Shown piece after piece: positions 1,488-48,300 of a stretch of DNA of 64,000 nucleotides. Position numbers and translations under genes: made by a program. The DNA is taken from contig JAHBWG010000004.1 of NCBI GenBank assembly GCA_019637095.1, forward strand, positions 124,001 through 188,000, read 5' to 3'. Position 1 is the stretch's first letter. The number at the start of each line of letters is the position of its first letter. The notes below the pieces were generated by a model that ran no database searches, was not told the origin of the DNA, and worked only from the letters and a program-made list of their open reading frames with translations. The stretch comes from Sandaracinaceae bacterium. GTDB taxonomy: Bacteria > Myxococcota_A > Polyangia > Polyangiales > Sandaracinaceae.

Positions 1488-1509
1488 GCTGAGCCCGATT
1501 CGATAGAAT
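1481..1509 (+). promoter_or_regulatory. Sigma-70-type promoter of the Fic-like gene
   Basis: TTGATC at 1481-1486 and TAGAAT at 1504-1509 are separated by exactly 17 bases. The site stands out because the flanking DNA is much richer in GC. It lies 49 bases before the chosen GTG start at 1558. Confidence 0.55.
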
Positions 1510-1557
1510 CCGCCCCCCAGCGGTCTTGTTACCGTGGCTCGATTGGGAGGTGGCTGC

Positions 1558-2334
1558 GTGCAGGCGCAACGGCTCGACGAGACGCTCCACGTCCTCCACG
1601 GGGAGCTCGAGAAGGCGGACGCGGAGACCCTCTCCGAGTACCACAAGATCTTCGATTTCTCGTGGATTTACCATGATTCCGCGCTCGAGGGCGTGGTCTA
1701 CAACATGGACGAGCTGCAGGCCGCGCTCGAGGCGAGCGAGCTCCCCGACCCGGCGCTCGGGCCCGTCTACGACGAGATCAAGCAGAACCAGGGCGCGATC
1801 CAGCTCATCCGCGAGCTCGCGGACAAGAAGCGGCTGACGATCTCGCTCGAGGTCATCAAGCGCATCTACGCGATGCTCGCGCCCGAAGAGGTCGAGGGCC
1901 GCGGGCCGGCGAAGTACCGCAAGGACATGCCGCTCCACCGCATGTACTTCCACGACATCTCGAAGCCGGAGAAGATCTCGTACAAGATGCGCCAGCTCGT
2001 GACGTGGATGAACGCGGCGGACACGCGGCGCTCGACCCACACGCTGCGCCTCGCGGCGAAGGCCCATTATCAGCTGCTGCACATCTACCCGTTCCCGAAG
2101 CACAGCGGGAAGGTGGCGCGCCTGCTGATGAACCTCATCCTCATCCGAGGTGGCTATCCGCCCGCCATCATCCACGCGACGGAGCGGCAGAGATACTACG
2201 ACGCGCTCAAGACGTCGGAGGACGCGACCGCGCGCATCGTGACCGAGGCGCTGATCGCGTCGATGAACAGCGCGCTGCGTTTCTTCGAGCAGGAAGAGTC
2301 GGCCCGGGGCGGCTGGCGCGCGCGCTCGGCCTGA
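1558..2334 (+). CDS. Degenerate Fic-fold protein (pseudo-Fic)
   Basis: 258 residues from GTG 1558, chosen because GGGAGG sits seven bases upstream; a GTG at 1534 is possible. The protein has the layout of class II Fic enzymes: an inhibitory-helix motif (S41-ALEG45, matching S/T-xxx-E-G/N) and later a Fic loop. The loop reads HIYPFPKHSGKVARL at residues 175-189, where active enzymes read HPF-x-(D/E)-GNGR-xx-R. The catalytic His is Tyr177, the acidic metal ligand is Lys181, GN is HS, and the first Arg is Lys185; PF, the central Gly and Arg188 remain. It is therefore unlikely to carry out ordinary AMPylation. It may have another chemistry or act as a binding protein or regulator. It stands alone behind its own promoter. 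Confidence 0.75.
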   Translation: MQAQRLDETLHVLHGELEKADAETLSEYHKIFDFSWIYHDSALEGVVYNMDELQAALEASELPDPALGPVYDEIKQNQGAIQLIRELADKKRLTISLEVIKRIYAMLAPEEVEGRGPAKYRKDMPLHRMYFHDISKPEKISYKMRQLVTWMNAADTRRSTHTLRLAAKAHYQLLHIYPFPKHSGKVARLLMNLILIRGGYPPAIIHATERQRYYDALKTSEDATARIVTEALIASMNSALRFFEQEESARGGWRARSA

Positions 2335-3623: not shown

Positions 3624-5417
3624 GTGGAGGCCTCGGTCCCGCCGCCGGCGGTCCGCCGCGCGCTCGTCGCGCTGGTGGCCGCGCAGGGCGTCCTGTTCGC
3701 CGCGCTCGGGCTGGCCCGCTACGCGTCCTTCCACAACGAGACGTTCGACCTCGCGTTCTACGCACGCATCGCGTGGGGGCTCGCGCGCAACGATCACTGG
3801 GAGCCGCTGGTCGACGCGCACGTGTACGGGCTGCATCTCTCGCCGATCCTGATCCCGCTCGGCGCGCTCGGCGCGGTGACCGACACGGCGGCGGTGTTGC
3901 TCGTCGCGCAGGCCGCCGCGCTCGCGCTCGCGGCCTTCCCGCTCGCGCGCATCGGCGTGCGCCACCTCGGCGCACCCGGCGCGCTCGTCGGCGCGCTCGT
4001 GTGGCTCTTCCACCCGAACCTCGGGCACGTCGCTGGCTACGAGGCGCACCCCGGCGTGATCGCGGCCCTCCCGCTCGCGTGGATCGCGTGGGCGGTCGAC
4101 GCGGGCTCGGCGCGCGCGCTCGTCTTCGGGGCGCTCGGCGTGCTGCTCTGCCGCGAGGATCTCGCGCTCGGTGTGGTCGCGGCGGCGGCGCTGTTCGCGT
4201 GGCGTCACGCCGCCGGGCGCCGGGCCGGAGCCGCCGTCGCGCTCGTCGCGCTCGCGTACGTCCTCTACTTCTTCGTGGTGCTGCACCCTCGCCATGCACC
4301 ACCGCAAGGATCGTTGCAGCTCCACTTCGGGCACTTCGGCGACAGCCTCCCCGCCGTGCTCACGCACGTGGCCACGCACCCGGGCGAGCTCGTGGCGCAC
4401 CTCGCCGCGCCGGAGCGGCTCCTCTACCTGCCGAAGATCCTGGCGCCGCTCGCGCTCTTGCCCCTGCTCGCGCCGCGCTGGGTGCTGCCGGCGCTGCCCG
4501 CGCTCGCCGTGAACCTCCTGAGCGCGTGGCCCACCGCGACGGACCTCGACGTCCAGTACCTCACGCCGGCGCTCCCGTTCCTCGTCGCCGGCGCGCTCGA
4601 AGGCGCGGGGCGCATGGCTCGGTCAGCGCCGCGCGCCGCGCCCGCCGCGCTGGCCATCGCGGCGCTGACGGGCCACGTCGTCGCCGGCGGGACCCCGCTC
4701 TCGCTCGATCATCCGTCGGAGGCGATGCGGCCCGACCACCGGACCGCCGCGGCGCGCGCGATCGCGCAGCACATCCCGCCGCGCGCGTCGGTCCAGGCGC
4801 CGTACCCGCTGCTCGCCCACCTCGCCGAGCGCCCCTTCCTGCGCCGGACGACGAGCCCGGAGTCGGGCACGGACTACTACGTCCTCGACGTCGCGCACCG
4901 CCGCCGCTTCGCGGCGAACGAGGACCTCGTGCGCACGACGGAGGAGCCGCCGGTGCGCGACTGGCTCGCGCGTGACGACCACCGCCTCGTCTACGCGGGC
5001 GGCGACTATCTCCTGCTCGAGCGCGGGTACCCTCCGCGCTCGGGGCTCGGCGGCCACGCGATCGTGGGCCGCGCGGACCCCGAGGCGGGGGAGCCGCTCA
5101 CGGCGTGTCTCGCGCTCCTCGGCGGCACGCTGCGCGAGGACGTCCTCGAGCTGCGGTTCGTCGCGCGCGCGCGCTGCCCGAGCGATCTCGCGCTCCGCGT
5201 CGGCGTGACGGAGCGGCCGCGCCGCACCGATCTGCTCTTCGGCGGCTGGCTGAGCCCCGTCCACCTCGAGCGCGGCGATCTCGTCGCGAGCCGTCATCGG
5301 CTCGGCCGCGCGCTGCGCGCCGCCGCGGAGCGCGGCGAGCTCCGCGTGGGCTTGATCCGTCAGAGCGGCGCGCGCCCGGAGCCCGACGATCCGAACAGCG
5401 TCCGCGTCCCGCTGTGA
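3624..5417 (+). CDS. DUF2079-type polytopic membrane protein
   Basis: 597 residues from GTG 3624. About ten hydrophobic helices fill roughly residues 12-350, followed by a soluble C-terminal domain of about 240 residues. Early features such as NETFDLAFYARIAWGLARN, an HLSPILIPLGAL segment and FHPNLGH match the DUF2079 family, which resembles GT-C glycosyltransferases in layout. Family members may use polyprenyl-linked sugars, but activity is unproven. The C-terminal part has a beta-rich segment and no clear motif. A weak hairpin separates it from the convergent aguB. Confidence 0.8.
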   Translation: MEASVPPPAVRRALVALVAAQGVLFAALGLARYASFHNETFDLAFYARIAWGLARNDHWEPLVDAHVYGLHLSPILIPLGALGAVTDTAAVLLVAQAAALALAAFPLARIGVRHLGAPGALVGALVWLFHPNLGHVAGYEAHPGVIAALPLAWIAWAVDAGSARALVFGALGVLLCREDLALGVVAAAALFAWRHAAGRRAGAAVALVALAYVLYFFVVLHPRHAPPQGSLQLHFGHFGDSLPAVLTHVATHPGELVAHLAAPERLLYLPKILAPLALLPLLAPRWVLPALPALAVNLLSAWPTATDLDVQYLTPALPFLVAGALEGAGRMARSAPRAAPAALAIAALTGHVVAGGTPLSLDHPSEAMRPDHRTAAARAIAQHIPPRASVQAPYPLLAHLAERPFLRRTTSPESGTDYYVLDVAHRRRFAANEDLVRTTEEPPVRDWLARDDHRLVYAGGDYLLLERGYPPRSGLGGHAIVGRADPEAGEPLTACLALLGGTLREDVLELRFVARARCPSDLALRVGVTERPRRTDLLFGGWLSPVHLERGDLVASRHRLGRALRAAAERGELRVGLIRQSGARPEPDDPNSVRVPL

Positions 5418-5439: not shown

Positions 5440-6342
5440 TCATCGCGATGGCTCGGTGCCGTCGGCGGCGAGCAGCGCGCGGTAGAGGTCGGGCCGGCGA
5501 TCGCGGAAGAAGCCCCACGACGCGCGCCGCTCGGCGAGGGCGACGCGATCGAACGCGTGGACGAGCACGCCGCTCTCGTCGGGCCCGAGCTCGCCGAGCA
5601 GGTTGCCCCGCGGGTCGCACAGGAACGAGGCGCCGTAGAAGACCAGCTTGCCCTCGTCGCCGATGCGGTTGGCGGCCGCGACCGGGATCGAGTTGGCGAC
5701 CGCGTGGCCCACCATCACGCGCTGCCACGGCTCCTTGGTCCGTTCGCCGCTGCGCGGCTCGCTCCCGATCGCCGTCGGGTAGAGCAGGATCTCGGCGCCT
5801 CGGAGCGAGAGCACGCGGGCGAGCTCGGGGAACCACTGGTCCCAGCAGATCCCGACGCCGATGCGGCCGTGGCGCGTGTCCCACACGGTGATCGGCGTGT
5901 CGCCCGGGCGGAAGAAGAACTTCTCGTGGTAGCCGGGGCCCTCGGGGATGTGCGCCTTGCGGTAGACGCCGAGCACCTCGCCGGTCGCGTCGATCATCGC
6001 GAGGCTGTTGTAGTAGGCCTGCCCGGCGCGCTCGAAGAACGAGTAGGGGATGACGACGTCGAGCTCCTTGGCCAGCGCGCAGAAGCGGCGGAGCGTCGGG
6101 TTGTCGGCGGGCTCGGCCCACGCGAAGTGGGCCTCGTCGTGGCCGCTCGGGAAGTAGGGCCCATGGAACAGCTCGGGCGGCAGCACGATGCGGGCGCCGA
6201 GCTCCGCGGCGTCGCGGATGTGACCGACGACGCGCGCCACGTTGAGCTCGCGCGCGTCGCCGAGCGCGCACTGCACGACGGCGACCGAGAGCTCGTCGTC
6301 GCTCGTCGCCTTGCTCGTTCGCTTCTTCTTGCGGGTGGTCAA
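5440..6342 (-). CDS. aguB: N-carbamoylputrescine amidase
   Basis: 300 residues from a TTG start at 6342 that overlaps the aguA stop (TTGA), with GGGAGC placed as a ribosome binding site. It belongs to the nitrilase superfamily, with the catalytic triad in order: Glu57 (LPPELFHG), Lys129 (YRKAHIP) and Cys166 (GICWDQWFPE). The YHEKFFF and FFRPGDTP segments are typical of the plant and bacterial AguB group. It hydrolyses N-carbamoylputrescine to putrescine, CO2 and ammonia. Direct coupling to agmatine deiminase supports the assignment. Confidence 0.93.
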   Translation of the reverse strand: MTTRKKKRTSKATSDDELSVAVVQCALGDARELNVARVVGHIRDAAELGARIVLPPELFHGPYFPSGHDEAHFAWAEPADNPTLRRFCALAKELDVVIPYSFFERAGQAYYNSLAMIDATGEVLGVYRKAHIPEGPGYHEKFFFRPGDTPITVWDTRHGRIGVGICWDQWFPELARVLSLRGAEILLYPTAIGSEPRSGERTKEPWQRVMVGHAVANSIPVAAANRIGDEGKLVFYGASFLCDPRGNLLGELGPDESGVLVHAFDRVALAERRASWGFFRDRRPDLYRALLAADGTEPSR

Positions 6343-7400
6343 TGCCGGGCTCCCGTGGGCTGCTGCTGGGTGACGCAGTGGAACGCGCCACCGCCGGTCA
6401 GGATCGTCTTGGCGCGGCGGCCGACCACGCGCCGGCTCGGGAACAGCGCCGCGATCGCCTCGACCGCGGCGTCGTCGTACGGCGAGCCGTAGGTCGGCAC
6501 CACGACGGCGGTGTTCGCGATGTAGAAGTTGACGTAGCTCGCCGGCATGACGAGACCCTCGTGGTCCTCGACGAGGCCGGGGGACGGAATTCGCTCGACC
6601 TGGAGCTTGCGGCCCGCCGCGTCCGTCATCGCCGCCAGGTCGCGCGCGATGGCGTCGAGCACCGCCGCGTTCGGATCGTGGTCGCCGCTCGGCGCCATGC
6701 ACACCACGCGTCCCGGCTCGACGAACCGCGCGAGCGTGTCGATGTGTCCGTCCGTGTGGTCGTGCAAGAGACCTTGCTCGAGCCAGAGCACCCGGCGCGC
6801 GCCGAACGCCTCCGCGAAGCGGGCCTCGATCGTCGCCTGCGCCATCCCGGGGTTGCGGTTCGGGTTGAGCATGCACTGACGCGTCGTCAGCAGCGTGCCC
6901 TCGCCGTCCGGCTCGATCGCGCCGCCCTCGAGCACCATGCCGAACGCGAACACCTCGGTGCCCGCGTGCTCTGCGACGCGCGCGGCGACGAGGTCGTCCC
7001 CGTCGAGGATGTACTTGCCGCCCCAGCCGTTGAAGGCGAAGCAGCACGCCGCGACCTCGCCCGCGTCGTTGCGCACGAAGATCGGCGCGATGTCGCGCAT
7101 CCAGATGTCGCCGAACGGGATGCGCGCGCACCTCACGCCGAGGTGCTCGAGCGCCTCGGACGCCTCGAGGTGCCGGACTCCGTCCGGCACGAGCATGCGG
7201 ATCGGCTCGCCGCGCGGGTGTCCCTCCTCGTCGAGGTCGGCGATCGCCTCGCACAGGCCGATGATCTCGCGCTGGGCCTCGCCGAGGTGCTGGGCCCAGA
7301 GCGCGTCGTGGCTCGGCCACGCCATCCAGACGGCGTCGTGCGGCTCCCACTCGGCGGGCTGGCGATGACCGGCGCGCGCCGGCGTCCTCTCCTCGCGCAT
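6339..7400 (-). CDS. aguA: Agmatine deiminase
   Basis: 353 residues from ATG 7400. A member of the guanidino-modifying (peptidylarginine deiminase) superfamily that turns agmatine into N-carbamoylputrescine and ammonia. Visible signatures: PAEWEPHDAVWMAWP at the N-terminus, FGDIWMRDIAP, VLEGGAIEPDGEG, LLHDHTDGHIDT, and GGGAFHCVTQQQP with the nucleophile Cys342. With aguB it forms a two-gene route from arginine-derived agmatine to putrescine. No arginine decarboxylase is in the window. Confidence 0.95.
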   Translation of the reverse strand: MREERTPARAGHRQPAEWEPHDAVWMAWPSHDALWAQHLGEAQREIIGLCEAIADLDEEGHPRGEPIRMLVPDGVRHLEASEALEHLGVRCARIPFGDIWMRDIAPIFVRNDAGEVAACCFAFNGWGGKYILDGDDLVAARVAEHAGTEVFAFGMVLEGGAIEPDGEGTLLTTRQCMLNPNRNPGMAQATIEARFAEAFGARRVLWLEQGLLHDHTDGHIDTLARFVEPGRVVCMAPSGDHDPNAAVLDAIARDLAAMTDAAGRKLQVERIPSPGLVEDHEGLVMPASYVNFYIANTAVVVPTYGSPYDDAAVEAIAALFPSRRVVGRRAKTILTGGGAFHCVTQQQPTGARH

Positions 7401-7468
7401 GGCGGGCCCGAAGGTAGGCTCGCCCAGCGCGCGGCGCCAGCCTCGATCGAGCGCGGCTCGTGCGTCGG

Positions 7469-9337
7469 TCAGATCAGCGGGTTGATGCGCTCGAGCTCCG
7501 AGCCGCCGGCGTAGCCGTAGCTGCCGACGTTGTAGTAGCCGTACACGAAGATGCCGACCGGGAGCGTCGCGTCGATCGTGTGTGCGCCGGCGGAGACCGG
7601 GCAGGTGACCGCCTGGTAGGTCGTGCCGTCGAGCTCGCCGGCCGTCTCGTAGGTGCAGAGCATCATGAACTCGTCGCCGAGGATGTCCGCGTCGTCGAGG
7701 AGCACCGTCGTGCCGGTCGGCATGCTGACGACCACGTAGTTTGCGCTGAACGTGCTCGGCGTGAGGAACACGTAGCTCTCGCGGTACTGCTGGTAGGGCG
7801 GGAACAGGATCATCGACGGGTCCCCGCCGTGGCCGGGGCGCCAGTCGTCGACCCAGCCCTGGCTCACCATGATCTGCTCGATGCTGACCGGGGCGTCGGC
7901 GCGCATGACGAAGCTGCGCTGCGCGTAGAACTCGCGCCACTGACCCGGCTCGAGGGTGAAGCTCGCGTCGCCACCGGGGAGGTTCGTGGTGATCGTCGTG
8001 CGCGCGCGGTCGGCCATCACGCGGTAGATGTCCGGCTCGGCCCACGCGCGCCCACGCTGCGGCGAGCGCGTGATCACGAAGTCGCGCCCCCACGCGGTCG
8101 TCGGGAAGACCTGCTCCTCGAGGTGCTCGGTGCAGCACCAGCTCTCGGGGCGGCCGCCGGGCGGGGTGGGCACGCCGTCGGTCGCGACCGGCGCGATGCC
8201 GCGCTCGCCGCCGCTGAACACGGCGACCGGCGCGCTCGACTCGACCACGGTGCCCGTCATGTCGCCGGGGATCCCGGTGCTCTCGAGGTTCAGGACGTCG
8301 TAGGGGCCGATGACGCGCTCGATGACGTCGCCGGCGTTGGCGGGGCCGATGCCGAGCCCGTAGTTGTCCCCGATGATCGGGCCGCCGAGCGTGACGCGCA
8401 CGGTGGTGTTCGGGACGGTCCCGACGATCGTGACGTACGAGTGGTCGGGGATGCCGTCGATGTTGCCGACGGGCTCGACCGGGTTCGCGGTCGGCCAGCC
8501 CAGCACGCGGTAGTGGTTGTCGAGCCCGCTCTCCGGCAGGAGCAGCGAGGCGTCGTTCGAGAAGTCCTGGACGATCGGGTTGAACTGGTAGGCGACGACC
8601 GGGTAGTTGCTCTCGATGCGGAACGCGTGCGAGCTCAGCCACGTGCCGCGGTCGTCCGGTCGCGCGGTCATCGGGCCGTCGACCTCGCGCTGACCCAGGA
8701 CGATCTCGAGCACGTCGCGCGGCATCGCGCGGCCCTCGAAGACCTGGCGCTCGACCGGCGCCGTGCCGAGCGGCGCGTCGTTGACGAACACGCGCACCGT
8801 CGCGGTGACGTTCGAGGGGTTCGCGATCGCGACGGCGAAGGGCTGCGCCCACGCGTTCTCGGTGACGAACCCGCGGGACTCGGCGTTGTCGAGGTCGACC
8901 GCCCAGTAGCGGCAGCCGATGTTCGAGCGGTTCGCGACGGCGTCGTCGCATGCGCGCACGCACTCGCCGACCCGGCCGGTCGCACGGCAGAGCTGATCGG
9001 CGGCGCACGTCATCGACGGCGTGTAGCCCGAGCCGTCGGCGTTGCAGACGAACAGGTCGTTGCCGACGCAGCGGTAGTAGTCGGGGCGGCACACGACGCA
9101 GCCCAGGCCCTCTGCGCACACGCGCTCGCCCGTGCACTGCTCGTCGTCGACGCGCTCGCCCCCGACGCAGCGCTGCACGCGCTCACCCGGCCCGCAGTAG
9201 AGCTGTCCGTCCACGCACGGCCCGGCGTCCGTGGCGACGCCGCCGCCGTCTCTCGACGTGTCCGAGCGCACGGCGCAGCCGGCAGCGAAGAGCGCGATCC
9301 CGAGAGAGAGGACGACGAGATGGTACGGCCAGCGCAT
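7469..9337 (-). CDS. Large secreted lipoprotein, IgGFc-binding-protein-like
   Basis: 622 residues. A lipoprotein signal ends at Cys21 (LFAAGC). A short Asp/Gly-rich linker and a cysteine-rich region of about 110 residues follow (many CxxG/Cx5C spacings, such as CVDGQLYCGPGERVQRC). The remaining 450 or so residues are beta-rich, with repeats of the type VVAYQFNP, SSAPVAVFSGG and DAPVSIEQIMVSQG. These resemble the N-terminal domain of IgGFc-binding proteins, common on myxobacterial surfaces. It is probably exposed at the outer membrane and adhesive or structural. No enzyme motif is seen. Confidence 0.8.
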   Translation of the reverse strand: MRWPYHLVVLSLGIALFAAGCAVRSDTSRDGGGVATDAGPCVDGQLYCGPGERVQRCVGGERVDDEQCTGERVCAEGLGCVVCRPDYYRCVGNDLFVCNADGSGYTPSMTCAADQLCRATGRVGECVRACDDAVANRSNIGCRYWAVDLDNAESRGFVTENAWAQPFAVAIANPSNVTATVRVFVNDAPLGTAPVERQVFEGRAMPRDVLEIVLGQREVDGPMTARPDDRGTWLSSHAFRIESNYPVVAYQFNPIVQDFSNDASLLLPESGLDNHYRVLGWPTANPVEPVGNIDGIPDHSYVTIVGTVPNTTVRVTLGGPIIGDNYGLGIGPANAGDVIERVIGPYDVLNLESTGIPGDMTGTVVESSAPVAVFSGGERGIAPVATDGVPTPPGGRPESWCCTEHLEEQVFPTTAWGRDFVITRSPQRGRAWAEPDIYRVMADRARTTITTNLPGGDASFTLEPGQWREFYAQRSFVMRADAPVSIEQIMVSQGWVDDWRPGHGGDPSMILFPPYQQYRESYVFLTPSTFSANYVVVSMPTGTTVLLDDADILGDEFMMLCTYETAGELDGTTYQAVTCPVSAGAHTIDATLPVGIFVYGYYNVGSYGYAGGSELERINPLI

Positions 9338-9394
9338 GTCCGACGGAATACCCGCGGTTCGCGCCGTCTCGCGTGCGTTTTCACAATCGATGCC

Positions 9395-10564
9395 TCACCA
9401 CGCGAGGACGCGCTCCTCGCCGAAGCGCTCGATCAGCCCGTCGACGTGCGCGAGGAGGTGAGCTCGGCGCAGCTCGAGGTGCGCGAGCTGCTCCTCGTCG
9501 AGGAGCGGGCCGAGCGGGTCGGCGTCGAGGCGCTCCGCGAAGCGCGCGACCGAGAGCCGCCGCGCCGCCTCGATCGTCGCGCGGCGGAAGCGCTGCACGC
9601 TCGCGAGCTGCGCGTCGAGGTGCCCGGTGCGCGCGCGGCGCATGGTGAAGCCCGCCGCGTTGTCGAGGAACATCAGGGGGCCGCCGTGCTCGAGCGTTCG
9701 CACGTTCGAGTGGTTCGCGCTCCAGCGATCGCCGTTGTGGATGAGGTAGTCGAACACGATCAGATCGCTGAGCTCCGCCGCGCGGTCCTCGCGATCCGCG
9801 ACGGGGATCGGCGGCACCTCGCGCGCGGCGGCGCCCGCGTCGAACGCCTCGCGCGCGCTCCGGTAGTGCCCTCCCGGCTGGAACGGCGAGACCGGCGCGA
9901 GCGCGTCGTCGAGGCGCAGCCACCGCTCCCATCCGTCGGGGAGCGCGGCCGCGCGCAGCCGCTGCGGGACCCACCAGATCAGCGCGCCGTCGAGCTCGTC
10001 GGTGTCGCGCTCGAGCTCGGCGACGCGCGGGTCGTCGCCGGCCGCGTCCTCGAGCTCGGCCCAGGCGACGCGTCGCCCGACGGACGCGGCCACGCGGCCC
10101 AGGCCGAGCATGCGGTCGAGGTGGTAGGCGGCGATCTCGGCGCGCCAGTTCATCCCCGAGAAGCTCTGGGCAGGCTTGAAGTAGGCGCGCGTTCCGTCCG
10201 CGAGCGTCACGCGGAAGCCCAGGCTCCGGCCGCCGCCGCCGCGCTCCACCGCGGCGAACGGCTCGCTCGCGAGCGCGTCGCGGATCGGCGCGTCGGGCAC
10301 GTCGAAGAAGCGCGCGCCGCGCAGCCGGGGCGGCGGGCGCCCTGCGTCGTGTCCCGCGTCGTGCCCTGCGTCGTGCCCCGCGTCGGCGAGCGTCCCTGCG
10401 CCGGCGCCCGCGTCGGCGGCGAGCGCCGCGGCGGCCTCGTCCCCCACGCGCGGCGCCGCCTTGCGTGCACCGACCGGACCGTGACACGCCGCGCTCGCGG
10501 CGAGCCCGAGCGCGAAACCCCACCGTGTCCACCGAGCCGCACCACCGTCTCTCTGCGTCCGCAC
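9395..10564 (-). CDS. Putative exported FAM20/four-jointed-like kinase lipoprotein
   Basis: 389 residues from GTG 10564. An N-terminal hydrophobic segment ends at Cys27 (imperfect lipobox SAAC), then an Ala/Asp/Gly linker with three GHDA repeats. The body shows the hallmark blocks of FAM20C-type secretory kinases in order: FKPAQ with Lys130, RAEIAAYHLDRMLGLGRV with Glu143, VFDYLIHNGDR with Asp279 (counterpart of NMDRHH), and LMFLDNAAGF with Asp301 (the metal-binding LDNGRGF counterpart). All four key residues are present; the HH after DR is WS. An ATP-dependent phosphotransfer outside the cytoplasm is inferred. The target is unknown. Standard bacterial kinase families do not fit. It is divergent from the glycosidase gene with 59 bases between the starts. 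Confidence 0.72.
   Translation of the reverse strand: MRTQRDGGAARWTRWGFALGLAASAACHGPVGARKAAPRVGDEAAAALAADAGAGAGTLADAGHDAGHDAGHDAGRPPPRLRGARFFDVPDAPIRDALASEPFAAVERGGGGRSLGFRVTLADGTRAYFKPAQSFSGMNWRAEIAAYHLDRMLGLGRVAASVGRRVAWAELEDAAGDDPRVAELERDTDELDGALIWWVPQRLRAAALPDGWERWLRLDDALAPVSPFQPGGHYRSAREAFDAGAAAREVPPIPVADREDRAAELSDLIVFDYLIHNGDRWSANHSNVRTLEHGGPLMFLDNAAGFTMRRARTGHLDAQLASVQRFRRATIEAARRLSVARFAERLDADPLGPLLDEEQLAHLELRRAHLLAHVDGLIERFGEERVLAW
10344..10379. repeat. Three 12-base tandem units encoding GHDA repeats
   Basis: Units GCGTCGTGTCCC, GCGTCGTGCCCT and GCGTCGTGCCCC lie in the lipoprotein linker of the FAM20-like gene, and a fourth partial unit follows. Copy number could vary by slippage without breaking the frame. 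Confidence 0.85.
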
Positions 10565-10623
10565 TCGCGCTCCCGTTCTGGGCGTTCTCGCCCGTAGAGA
10601 GCGGGATCTGCACGGCGCGATCC

Positions 10624-11814
10624 ATGCTTCGTCGCTCGCTCGTGAACCGCGTCGCCCTGCTCGCTGCTGCGTGTGCCCTCGTCCCCGCGCTCGCCGGCGC
10701 GCAGGAGGTCCCTCGCCGCCTCAGCCCGCCCGTCGACTCGTGGTCGGAGCCGACGGCGGGCTTGCGCTACCTGCACCGCACGCACGACGAACCGCGGATC
10801 TCGGTGCACGCGCTCGTGATCGACCTCGAGCGAGAGGGCGTGCGGATCGCAGCGACGCCCGAGCGGCGCCGCTGGGGGACGGTGACCGACTTCGCGCACG
10901 CCGAGGGCGCGGCCGCCGCGATCAACGGGGGCTTCTGGGGGATGTGGCAGCGCCCGAGCGGGGTCACCGCCGGCGGCGGCGCGCTCTGGACGACCTCGGA
11001 GCCCAACGAGGAGTTCGGTCACTTCGCGGTGCTGCGCCACGGACGCGCGGTGGTGAACGGCCCCGGCGAAGGCGAGGACGCGCGGAGCCTCGCGCAGGTC
11101 GCGGAGGCGGTGAGCGGGCGGCCGGTGCTCGTCAGCCGCGGCGCCGTCGACGAGGCGTCGCTCGACGCGTTCGCGACCGCGAACCAACGGCAGCCGCGGA
11201 CGGCGGTGGGCGTCTCGCGCGACGGGCGGCGCGTCGTCTTCGTGGTGAGCGATGGGCGCCAGGGCCACAGCCGCGGGCTCACGCTCTACCAGCTCGCGCG
11301 CACGCTCGTGGAGCTCGGCGCGTGGCGGGCGATCAACCTCGACGGCGGCGGCTCGAGCGTGATGTACGTGCGGGAGGCCGGCGGCATCGTGAGCTCACCG
11401 TCGCCCGGCCGCTGGGTCGCGATGATGGGGCTCGAGCCGTCCGCGAGCGATCGGGTGCGGACGGTGCGCGGCGAGCAGGAGGTCTTCGTGCGCGGCGTGG
11501 AGCGCGAGGTGATGACGCACCTCGCGGTGATCGCGCCGCCGCCCGAGCACGCGGTCGAGGTGCAGGGCGTCGCGAGCGCGCTCGGCGACGACCTCGCCGC
11601 GGATGGGCCGGCGCGCGCGCCGATCTCGCCTGGGCGCGAACCGCTGCGGCTCGGTCGGGCGCGCGAGCTGCTCTATCCCGCCGCGTACGTCGGCGCGCCC
11701 ATGGGCGCGCTCGTGCTCACCGGCTTCGCGCTGCGGCGGGTCAGCTCGCGGAGAGCAGCCCGGCGAGCGTCTTCGGCGACATCTCGTACGTCTGCCCACA
11801 GTAGTCGCACGTGA
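10624..11814 (+). CDS. Exported phosphodiester glycosidase family protein (NAGPA/DUF2233-like)
   Basis: 396 residues from ATG 10624. A signal peptide ends near ALAGAQ (about residue 23). The domain carries the family marks AAAINGGFWGM, TAVGVSRDGRRVVFVV and the active-site-like AINLDGGGSSVMYV. Relatives remove N-acetylglucosamine from phosphodiesters (the uncovering enzyme) or act on cell-wall phosphodiesters in bacteria. A possible membrane helix near the C-terminus (PAAYVGAPMGALVLTGFAL) is followed by a very basic tail. That tail is read antisense through the end of hslO: the two convergent genes overlap by 74 bases, so the tail may be a late addition rather than a functional element. Confidence 0.85.
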   Translation: MLRRSLVNRVALLAAACALVPALAGAQEVPRRLSPPVDSWSEPTAGLRYLHRTHDEPRISVHALVIDLEREGVRIAATPERRRWGTVTDFAHAEGAAAAINGGFWGMWQRPSGVTAGGGALWTTSEPNEEFGHFAVLRHGRAVVNGPGEGEDARSLAQVAEAVSGRPVLVSRGAVDEASLDAFATANQRQPRTAVGVSRDGRRVVFVVSDGRQGHSRGLTLYQLARTLVELGAWRAINLDGGGSSVMYVREAGGIVSSPSPGRWVAMMGLEPSASDRVRTVRGEQEVFVRGVEREVMTHLAVIAPPPEHAVEVQGVASALGDDLAADGPARAPISPGREPLRLGRARELLYPAAYVGAPMGALVLTGFALRRVSSRRAARRASSATSRTSAHSSRT

Positions 11815-45378: not shown

Positions 45379-48300
45379 TCACCCGCCGATGGCGATGCCG
45401 AGCTTGTGGCGCAGCGAGAGGTAGTCCTCGCTGACCGCGTAGGTGTGGAGCTCCTTCAGGCGGTCCTTGCTGCCGACGCCGGCGGAGTCCTCCGGCGACG
45501 CCTTGATGATCGCCGTCGAGAGCTCGAGGTCGTTCGAGAGCACGAAGCCGACGCGGTCGGCGGTGAGGTCCACCGCGGCGACCCACTTCTTGAGGTCGAG
45601 CTCCGGCGCGGCGGCGAGGAGCTTCTGCACGTGGCTGCGCAGCCGGTCCTTGTCGGGCCCGGAGAGCTGCTTGTCGAACGCCGCGAGGCTCTCGGCCACC
45701 GCCGCCTCGAGGTTCTTCGGGATCGGGAACTGCCCGACGGCCGTCTTGATCGCGGCGAGCAGCCACGCGCGCAGGCCGCTGCCCGTCGGCACCAGCATGC
45801 GCAGGTAGTGCCCGGGGCGCAGGTAGCTCAGGTGCCGGCCCGCGACGAACGCGAGGGCCTTGCTCGGACCGCCCGCGAGCGCGCCCTTGCCCAGGCCGAT
45901 CGCCGGCGGGTCGGTGAACACGAAGCTCAGGCCCCCCGGATCCTTCGTGCGGTAGTACACGTCCGGCAGCGTGATCGCGGTGACCCCCGCCGCGTAGACG
46001 AGCGTGCGCGCGAGGTCGGCCTCGTCGCTCGCCGGCTCGCGCTTGTCCGCGGGCGTGATGGCGAACTTGTCGAGCCCCTGCGCGCGGGTCGCGACGACGG
46101 CGCGCGTGATCGTGGCGAAGATGTCCGTCAGCAAGACGTCTTGCGTCGGGTGCTGGAGGTGACGCGCCCACATCTCGGCGGTGAACGCGCTCGTCGCCGC
46201 CGCGGGCTCGCGCGTGCGGTGCTTCTTGTAGAAGGTCAACTCGTCGGGCTCCGCGTTCTTGAGCACGCTGAGCGCCTGGCAGGTGCACCACGACTCGTCG
46301 GGCTTCTTGGCCTCGGTGTAGAGCTTGCGCAGGGCCTGGTAGCTCTCGATCCGGTACGGGTTGAGCTCGAGCAGCTCGCCGTGGACCTTCACCGCCTTCT
46401 GGAAGTAGCGCTTGGGCTCGGCGCCGTAGACCGACGCGAGCTGCTCGAGCCGCCGCCGGTTGCCCGGGTCGAGCTTCTGCGCCTCCTCGAGCACCTCGGT
46501 CGCGTCGCCCGGCCGCTCGAGGCGGTGGAGCAGGAGCTCGCCGAGCTGGTCTTGCAGGTGCGCGCGGTCCTTGGCGGGCGCGTCGGCGGGCAGGCCCTTG
46601 AGGCGGTCGCGGTAGACCTCCTCGAGCCGGTCCCAGTCGCCCTGCGTGTTGAGCGCGGTGACGAGGCCGTCGAAGCTCTTGAGCGAGGTCGGCTCGTGCT
46701 CGAGCGCCTGCTCGTAGTAGTCGGCCGCCTCCTCGAGCCGGTTCAGCTCGAAGTGACAGATGGCCGCGGCCGTGTGGTAGTACTTCGAGAGCTGGCGCGA
46801 GTCGTCGACGAGCTCGGCGATGCGCAGGATGACTTCGACCAGGCGCGACCAGTCCTTGCTCTCCGAGTAGACCGCCATGAGCTTGGTCAGGAGGTTGCGG
46901 TCGTCGGCGCGCAGCTCGAGCGCGGCGACGTAGCTCTTGGACGCCTTCGCCTTGTCGCCGATCTCGTTCATCAGGACGTCGCCGGTCTCGACGAGCAGGC
47001 CGTAGCGCTCCTCGTCGGGGGCCGACTCCATGCGGCGGCGCAGCGTGCGCACGACGTCCTCCCACTTGCCCTGCGCGGCGTAGAGCTCCTTGAGCGAGCG
47101 CAGCGGCGCCGGGTCGTCGGGCATGAGGTCCGCCGCCTCGTTGAGGTGGAGCTTGGCCTCCGCGAGCTCGCCCGCCTTGCGCAACGACTCGCCGAAGCGC
47201 CAGAGCACGCGGCCCTTCTCCTGGCCGACGAGGTGCTTGCCGAACTGCTTGAACACGTCGCGGTAGAGCTCGGCCGCCTCGTCGGGCGCGCCCATGTCGA
47301 ACGTCACCTCGGCGACGCGCTCGAGCACCTCGCGGTCGTCCGCGGCGAAGGCCTTGGCGTTGAGGTACGCGCGCTGCGCCTTGTCGTAGAGCTCGAGCTT
47401 GCGGAACGCGTCGCCGCAGCGGACGGAGACGTCGCGCGCGACGTCGGCCGGCATCTCGCTCGTGCGCGCGAGCAGCGGCTCGTAGTGGCGGACCGCCTCG
47501 GCGAAGTCGCCCTTCTCGTAGGCCATCTCGCCGAGCCCGCGCGCCGCTGGCGTGCAGGTCGGGTCGAGCTCGAGCGCCTTCTCGAACGAGATCCGCCCGC
47601 GGATCGGATCCTCGAGCCGGTCGCGCTGCAGCGTGCCGAGCTCGGCGTAGAGCTTGGCCTTGGAGATCTTGCCCTCGGTGACCTCGATCTCGCGCACGAG
47701 CAGCTCGGCGGCGCCGTGCGCGTCGCCACGGCCGGCGTAGATCGAGCGCAGCGCGGTCGCCGCCTTGGGGTGATCGGGCTGCGCGTCGAGCGCGCGCTTG
47801 TAGCGCTCGATCGCGCCGTCCTTGTCGCCCTTGTCCTCGAGGATCCGGCCCGCGCGGACGTAGAGGTCGGCCTTCTTCGCCGGGTCGTTCTCCGCCTGGG
47901 CGAGGCGGTCGGTCGCCTCGAGCGCCTTGTGCGCGTCGCCGGTCTGCGCTTGCAGCCGGCTCGTCAGCTCGAGCGCCTCGGTGTGGTGTTCGTCGAGCGC
48001 GGTGACGCGCTCCACGATCTTGAGCGCGCGATCCGGCGCGCCGACGTCGACCATCAGGACCTTGGCGGCCTGGAGCAAGAGGTCGATCTTGCGGGTCTCG
48101 TCCTCGCTGCCGAGCGCGTGGCGCTCGAGCGTCTTGGCGAGGTCGTCGAAGCGCTGGAGCTTGCGGTAGACGCCGACGAGCATGACGTTGGCGCCCTCGT
48201 GCCCGGGCTCGATCTCGACGATCCGCGCGAGGCAGTGCTCGGCCTTCTCGTGATCGACGAACTCCTCGAGGTGGAGGCCCGCCATGCGCTCGAGGATCGA

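Follow-up and report, generated by a model that had tools for sequence, protein, structure and literature searches.

The kinase gene in the window, i.e. the whole 64,000-nucleotide stretch of Sandaracinaceae DNA that we analysed, probably encodes an exported, envelope-anchored enzyme of the FAM20 fold. Its product belongs to a bacterial clade that is related to the animal FAM20A, FAM20B and FAM20C kinases yet distinct from them; judged by its sequence, it is not an orthologue of any of the three. The papers we consulted treat the family as animal and put a glycan kinase resembling Fam20B at its root (PMC5865150, PMC7948968); in a kinome survey, FAM20 is one of the clusters specific to eukaryotes or metazoa (PMC9758233). 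Our literature search, which covered mainly titles and abstracts, for the most part outside the subscription journals, returned no report of a bacterial FAM20; an earlier one is possible, and it may already be known that the Pfam Fam20C model matches bacterial proteins. A widespread bacterial FAM20 branch that is exported and has a simpler active site would open the origin of the animal secretory kinases to testing and would suggest that bacteria phosphorylate targets beyond their cytoplasm. The features are collected in Table 1.

Table 1. Kinase gene, parts and active-site residues of its product, and neighbouring genes (positions in the window).
Feature	Position	Strand	Basis
Exported FAM20-fold kinase gene (putative)	9395..10564	-	ORF, 389 aa, GTG start; Pfam Fam20C above cut-off
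Export signal, residues 1-27, ending at possible lipoprotein Cys C27	10484..10564	-	Sequence; hydrophobic-segment scan of the family
Linker, residues 28-79, AGHD repeats	10328..10483	-	Seen in sequence; outside the conserved domain
Kinase domain, residues 80-389	9398..10327	-	AlphaFold2 pLDDT 95.3; Z 24-26 vs Fam20 structures
K130, ion-pair Lys (human FAM20C K285)	10175..10177	-	47/48 homologues
E143, ion-pair Glu (human FAM20C E311)	10136..10138	-	48/48
D279, catalytic Asp (human FAM20C D458)	9728..9730	-	48/48
N287, proposed second metal ligand	9704..9706	-	Role inferred from alignment
D301, metal-binding Asp (human FAM20C D478)	9662..9664	-	48/48
IgGFc_binding-family protein, lipobox AAGC, 57 bp downstream of the kinase	7469..9337	-	Pfam PF17517 E=5e-55
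Agmatine deiminase-type gene aguA	6339..7400	-	Pfam PAD_porph E=3.5e-114; NCBIfam aguA models below cut-offs
N-carbamoylputrescine amidase-type gene aguB, start codon uncertain	5440..6342	-	NCBIfam TIGR03381 E=6e-116, slightly below cut-off
NAGPA-family phosphodiester glycosidase, signal peptide, divergent	10624..11814	+	Pfam PF09992 E=6.5e-33

The resemblance to Fam20 extends, on the sequence comparisons, beyond chance. The Pfam Fam20C model scored 36.9 bits (E=4.1e-9) against a gathering cut-off of 26.8, so that the profile search proposed in the preliminary description came out in its favour, and a phmmer search of the PDB sequences retrieved Fam20 proteins only, with hydra Fam20 as the best match (E=1e-9). 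Among the related genomes, 35 of 38 held a match to the window protein, with identity of up to 57%. We built two alignments, A1 from 17 close homologues and A2 from 48 members, 44 of which matched the Pfam Fam20C model. Searched against the PDB sequences, the A1 profile matched human FAM20C best (E=2e-28) and then other Fam20 proteins; the two remaining matches were unrelated (E > 0.05), and no other kinase was retrieved. NCBIfam has no model for the window kinase, and no Four-jointed model was found among its Pfam matches. Between positions 5000 and 16000 of the window, the high GC content produces spurious ORFs of great length in both orientations, e.g. at 7460-10597 (+) across the kinase gene, and ORF length alone was therefore no guide.

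The AlphaFold2 model of residues 80-389, computed with alignment A2, had a mean pLDDT of 95.3 and a pTM of 0.93. The first 28 Foldseek matches of this model were all Fam20 chains. In VIA-align, the Fam20 structures gave Z scores of 24-26 over 270-274 aligned residues, with rmsd of 2.7-3.3. The next best fold, PI4KII, reached 15.6-16.2, CtkA at most 15.5 and HipA 11.6. The prediction thus gave a Fam20-like fold and not an unrelated one, and FAM20 likeness at the level of the predicted fold is well supported.

In human FAM20C, the ion pair is formed by K285 and E311, D458 is the catalytic and D478 the metal-binding Asp, and E306 is an indispensable metal-binding Glu specific to FAM20 (PMC4421793); K271 binds phosphate (PMC5413348). 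The four blocks that had been read from the window sequence, F-K130-P-A-Q, R-A-E143-IAAYHLDR, VFDYLIHNG-D279-R and LMFL-D301-NAAGF, are present at those residues. Their loss from homologues was not seen: of the 48 members of A2, 47 retain K130 and all retain E143, D279 and D301, and these four residues and N287 are invariant in A1. The order of the blocks is that of FAM20C, as had been claimed, and the E-to-D and D-to-D spacings are similar in the two proteins (136 and 22 residues, compared with 147 and 20 in human FAM20C). Lacking the FAM20-specific loop in which E306 lies, the window protein departs from the claimed spacing between Lys and Glu, with 13 residues as against 26 in the human protein (K285-E311, numbered as in PMC4421793).

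The classification as a FAM20/four-jointed-like kinase holds for the FAM20-type fold and fails for ordinary membership of the FAM20 family; nothing that we found favours Four-jointed in particular. No equivalent of E306 was found in the alignment, where the loop is shorter and the position is taken by M138 (acidic in 2 of 48 members). The same is true of K271, whose position is occupied by G116 (Lys in none of the 48). The kinase domain has no Cys and hence none of the four animal disulfides, and the two sugar contacts of Fam20B, H301 and K321 in hydra numbering (PMC5865150), are replaced in the alignment by W281 and A304. Nearly all members have an Asn C-terminal to the catalytic Asp, at a variable distance; an Asn stands at the N287 position in 40 of the 48 sequences of A2, and others have a shifted Asn. 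From this alignment, N287 may be the usual second metal ligand, which E306 would have replaced in the animal FAM20 line.

We consider the window kinase likely to be active, going by these conserved residues. D279 would act as the base and D301 and N287 would hold two metal ions, in which case the usual kinase Asn has been kept instead of the FAM20-specific Glu. ATP would then be the phosphate donor and a hydroxyl group the acceptor, carried by a glycan of the envelope or a protein at the surface. A glycan acceptor seems about as probable as a protein, with a slight preference for the glycan, and any other acceptor appears distinctly less probable. The alignment-based absence of E306, indispensable in FAM20C, and of K271 counts against the kinase reading. 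It also counts against it that no source of ATP is known for the periplasm or the cell exterior; lysed neighbouring cells might be one. The same points would favour a protein that binds a nucleotide or another ligand in the envelope, where ATP is unexpected, whether as a pseudokinase or as an enzyme that puts the kinase fold to another use (e.g. AMPylation, the reaction of SelO); moreover, Fam20A has Gln at the E306 position, and this change renders it inactive (PMC4421793). Nevertheless, the ion pair, the catalytic Asp and the metal Asp are kept even in highly divergent members, which a dead enzyme would not need, and the conserved Asn may substitute for E306. We therefore regard this explanation as unlikely, though deserving of serious attention.

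Export, the other element of the preferred reading, had been claimed from the N-terminus of the window protein, and the claim is supported: this N-terminus (WTRWGFALGLAASAAC-HGP) is of the export type, and a simple home-made score found a hydrophobic N-terminus of that type in all but four of the 53 family members (49), three of these four having given no scored start. The further claim that the protein is a lipoprotein fits many of its relatives better than the protein itself. A lipobox was scored in 21 members and is clear in many relatives, for which lipoprotein status is likely from the motif, and the clade comprising most of L022-L038 mostly has the signal and lacks the lipobox. The window protein has the lipobox S-A-A-C at C27, which is weak at position -3, and on this motif its lipoprotein status is uncertain.

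In the gene neighbourhood, the kinase and NAGPA-family genes start ~60 bp apart, and a NAGPA-family gene occupies the same upstream place in 7 further loci, a faint hint of glycan chemistry. On the other side, among the 34 loci with at least 1.5 kb of downstream sequence, aguA and/or aguB lie downstream on the same strand in 24 (aguA in 21, aguB in 23), loci that are not independent because many belong to one clade. The candidate aguA starts are found 9 nt past the kinase stop codon in many loci and overlap that codon in four (L038, L044, L048, L051). In 16 loci, most of them from a single clade, an upstream gene resembles alanine dehydrogenase/ornithine cyclodeaminase. These neighbours could place the kinase gene in an arginine/agmatine-polyamine operon, with its product acting on a pathway compound or on regulation of the pathway. 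We think this very improbable: the kinase has an export signal and AguA and AguB have none, ten of the 34 loci lack the aguA/aguB arrangement, and agmatine has no hydroxyl group. Conversely, the conserved aguA and aguB products look cytoplasmic and offer no pointer to an envelope substrate, which counts against an envelope kinase.

The window and L021 have the IgGFc_binding gene between the kinase gene and aguA; in L057, a homologue comes after the kinase gene. Its 622-aa product in the window has a single S-x-E motif, the kind that FAM20C phosphorylates, and we rejected it as a candidate substrate of the kinase for want of support. At 1507-2331 (+), the window encodes a protein of the Fic/DOC family (Pfam E=5e-13), and such a gene stands beyond the aguA-aguB block in ~19 loci.

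A HipA-like bacterial kinase with shallow FAM20 likeness, suggested by weak Pfam HipA_C and HipA_2 matches and by a catalytic-loop Asn as in HipA, is scarcely credible and was rejected on Pfam and fold scores, since HipA_C reached 12.7 bits against a cut-off of 30.5, the Z score of HipA is far below those of the Fam20 structures, and the window protein carries an export signal.

The exported kinase is not confined to one genome. Scanning 84,980 species genomes with two short peptide patterns gave at least 52 loci, a lower bound because of the patterns used; nearly all were labelled Myxococcota, Deltaproteobacteria or similar MAGs, and one was from Acidobacteriota. Among 284 Myxococcota genomes, 79 held a match to A2 at E 1e-8, several of them in multiple copies. 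PF06702 alone at E 1e-5 found 23 of the 284 and is too insensitive as a census tool. With the family alignment, two genomes (G013 and G027) gave eight matches apiece; some Polyangiales are thus multi-copy. The genome of the window itself (G000) encodes a paralogue on contig C114 at 46528-47358 (-), with E=1.2e-54 to the family alignment. In Acidobacteriota, 16 of 149 genomes had a match, mostly over the C-lobe, and the two proteins compared with Pfam both scored less than the Fam20C cut-off, one of them passing just over that of PI3_PI4_kinase; we therefore class the Acidobacteriota proteins as distant exported kinase-fold relatives and not as members. Most of the exported-looking proteins L085 and L087-L092 have a D-R-N-x-G-N loop.

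Two other origins of the gene were rejected. Against a mobile element, plasmid and phage records contained no match to the kinase family and viral structures gave weak kinase matches only. Contamination with animal DNA is at odds with the 194-kb contig, the bacterial neighbours and the homologues in dozens of bacterial genomes.

Polyangiaceae also have a second group of exported kinases with the FAM20 fold (L056, L059-L062, L064, L073-L078, L083), most of them with a lipobox. Compared with the window protein, this group is nearer to animal Fam20 by tree, profile and identity. In an unrooted tree of 55 rows, the five animal sequences and the Polyangiaceae lipobox paralogues share one side of a branch (100/97), and the window clade and deeper bacterial clades lie on the other. 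The tree does not separate a position of the animals inside the Polyangiaceae group from one beside it (p-AU 0.25). The branch leading to the animals, at 2.15, is long, only one of the five animal rows is complete, and the animal residues were taken from alignments to PDB chains; these animals were the only eukaryotes in the tree, and the Polyangiaceae clade was named only after a first quick tree. With an animal-only profile, the second Polyangiaceae group scored best (3e-23 for L060, 2.4e-8 for the window protein), and in structural alignments L060 was 26-34% and the window protein 22-26% identical to animal Fam20. The grouping hints at ancestry by gene transfer. As a tentative reading, which we hold to be possible but on balance doubtful, the ancestors of the animal FAM20 kinases, enzymes that phosphorylate proteoglycans and secreted proteins, would have been exported envelope kinases acquired from Myxococcota by gene transfer, the catalytic-loop Asn would later have given way to the E306 loop and disulfides would have been gained, leaving the window protein in a sister bacterial clade with the older active site.

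Among known systems, PI4KII, CtkA and HipA share the kinase fold distantly and have the catalytic-loop Asn in common with the window protein, with Z scores no higher than 16 or so and no Pfam match over cut-off; HipA, moreover, is cytoplasmic and paired with HipB, unlike the window protein. The Polyangiaceae lipobox paralogues (L056, L059-L062, L064) have the same catalytic set, fold and export, and likewise lack E306; they differ in forming a separate clade and in showing no aguA/aguB linkage in the loci seen. The Golgi casein kinase FAM20C (human 5yh3, zebrafish 5yh0, C. elegans 4kqa/4kqb) has the same fold (Z ~25), is the best profile match and has the four catalytic residues in common with the window protein, which differs in its missing E306 and K271 equivalents, its missing disulfides and its shorter K-to-E distance. 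Fam20B and the basal animal Fam20, a glycosaminoglycan xylosylkinase represented by hydra Fam20 (PDB 5xom, 5xoo), likewise have the same fold, with Z ~26. The ion pair, the catalytic Asp, the metal Asp and entry into an export route are common to hydra Fam20 and the window protein, whereas the latter is bacterial, lacks the E306-type loop Glu and the disulfides, and carries W281 and A304 in place of H301 and K321.
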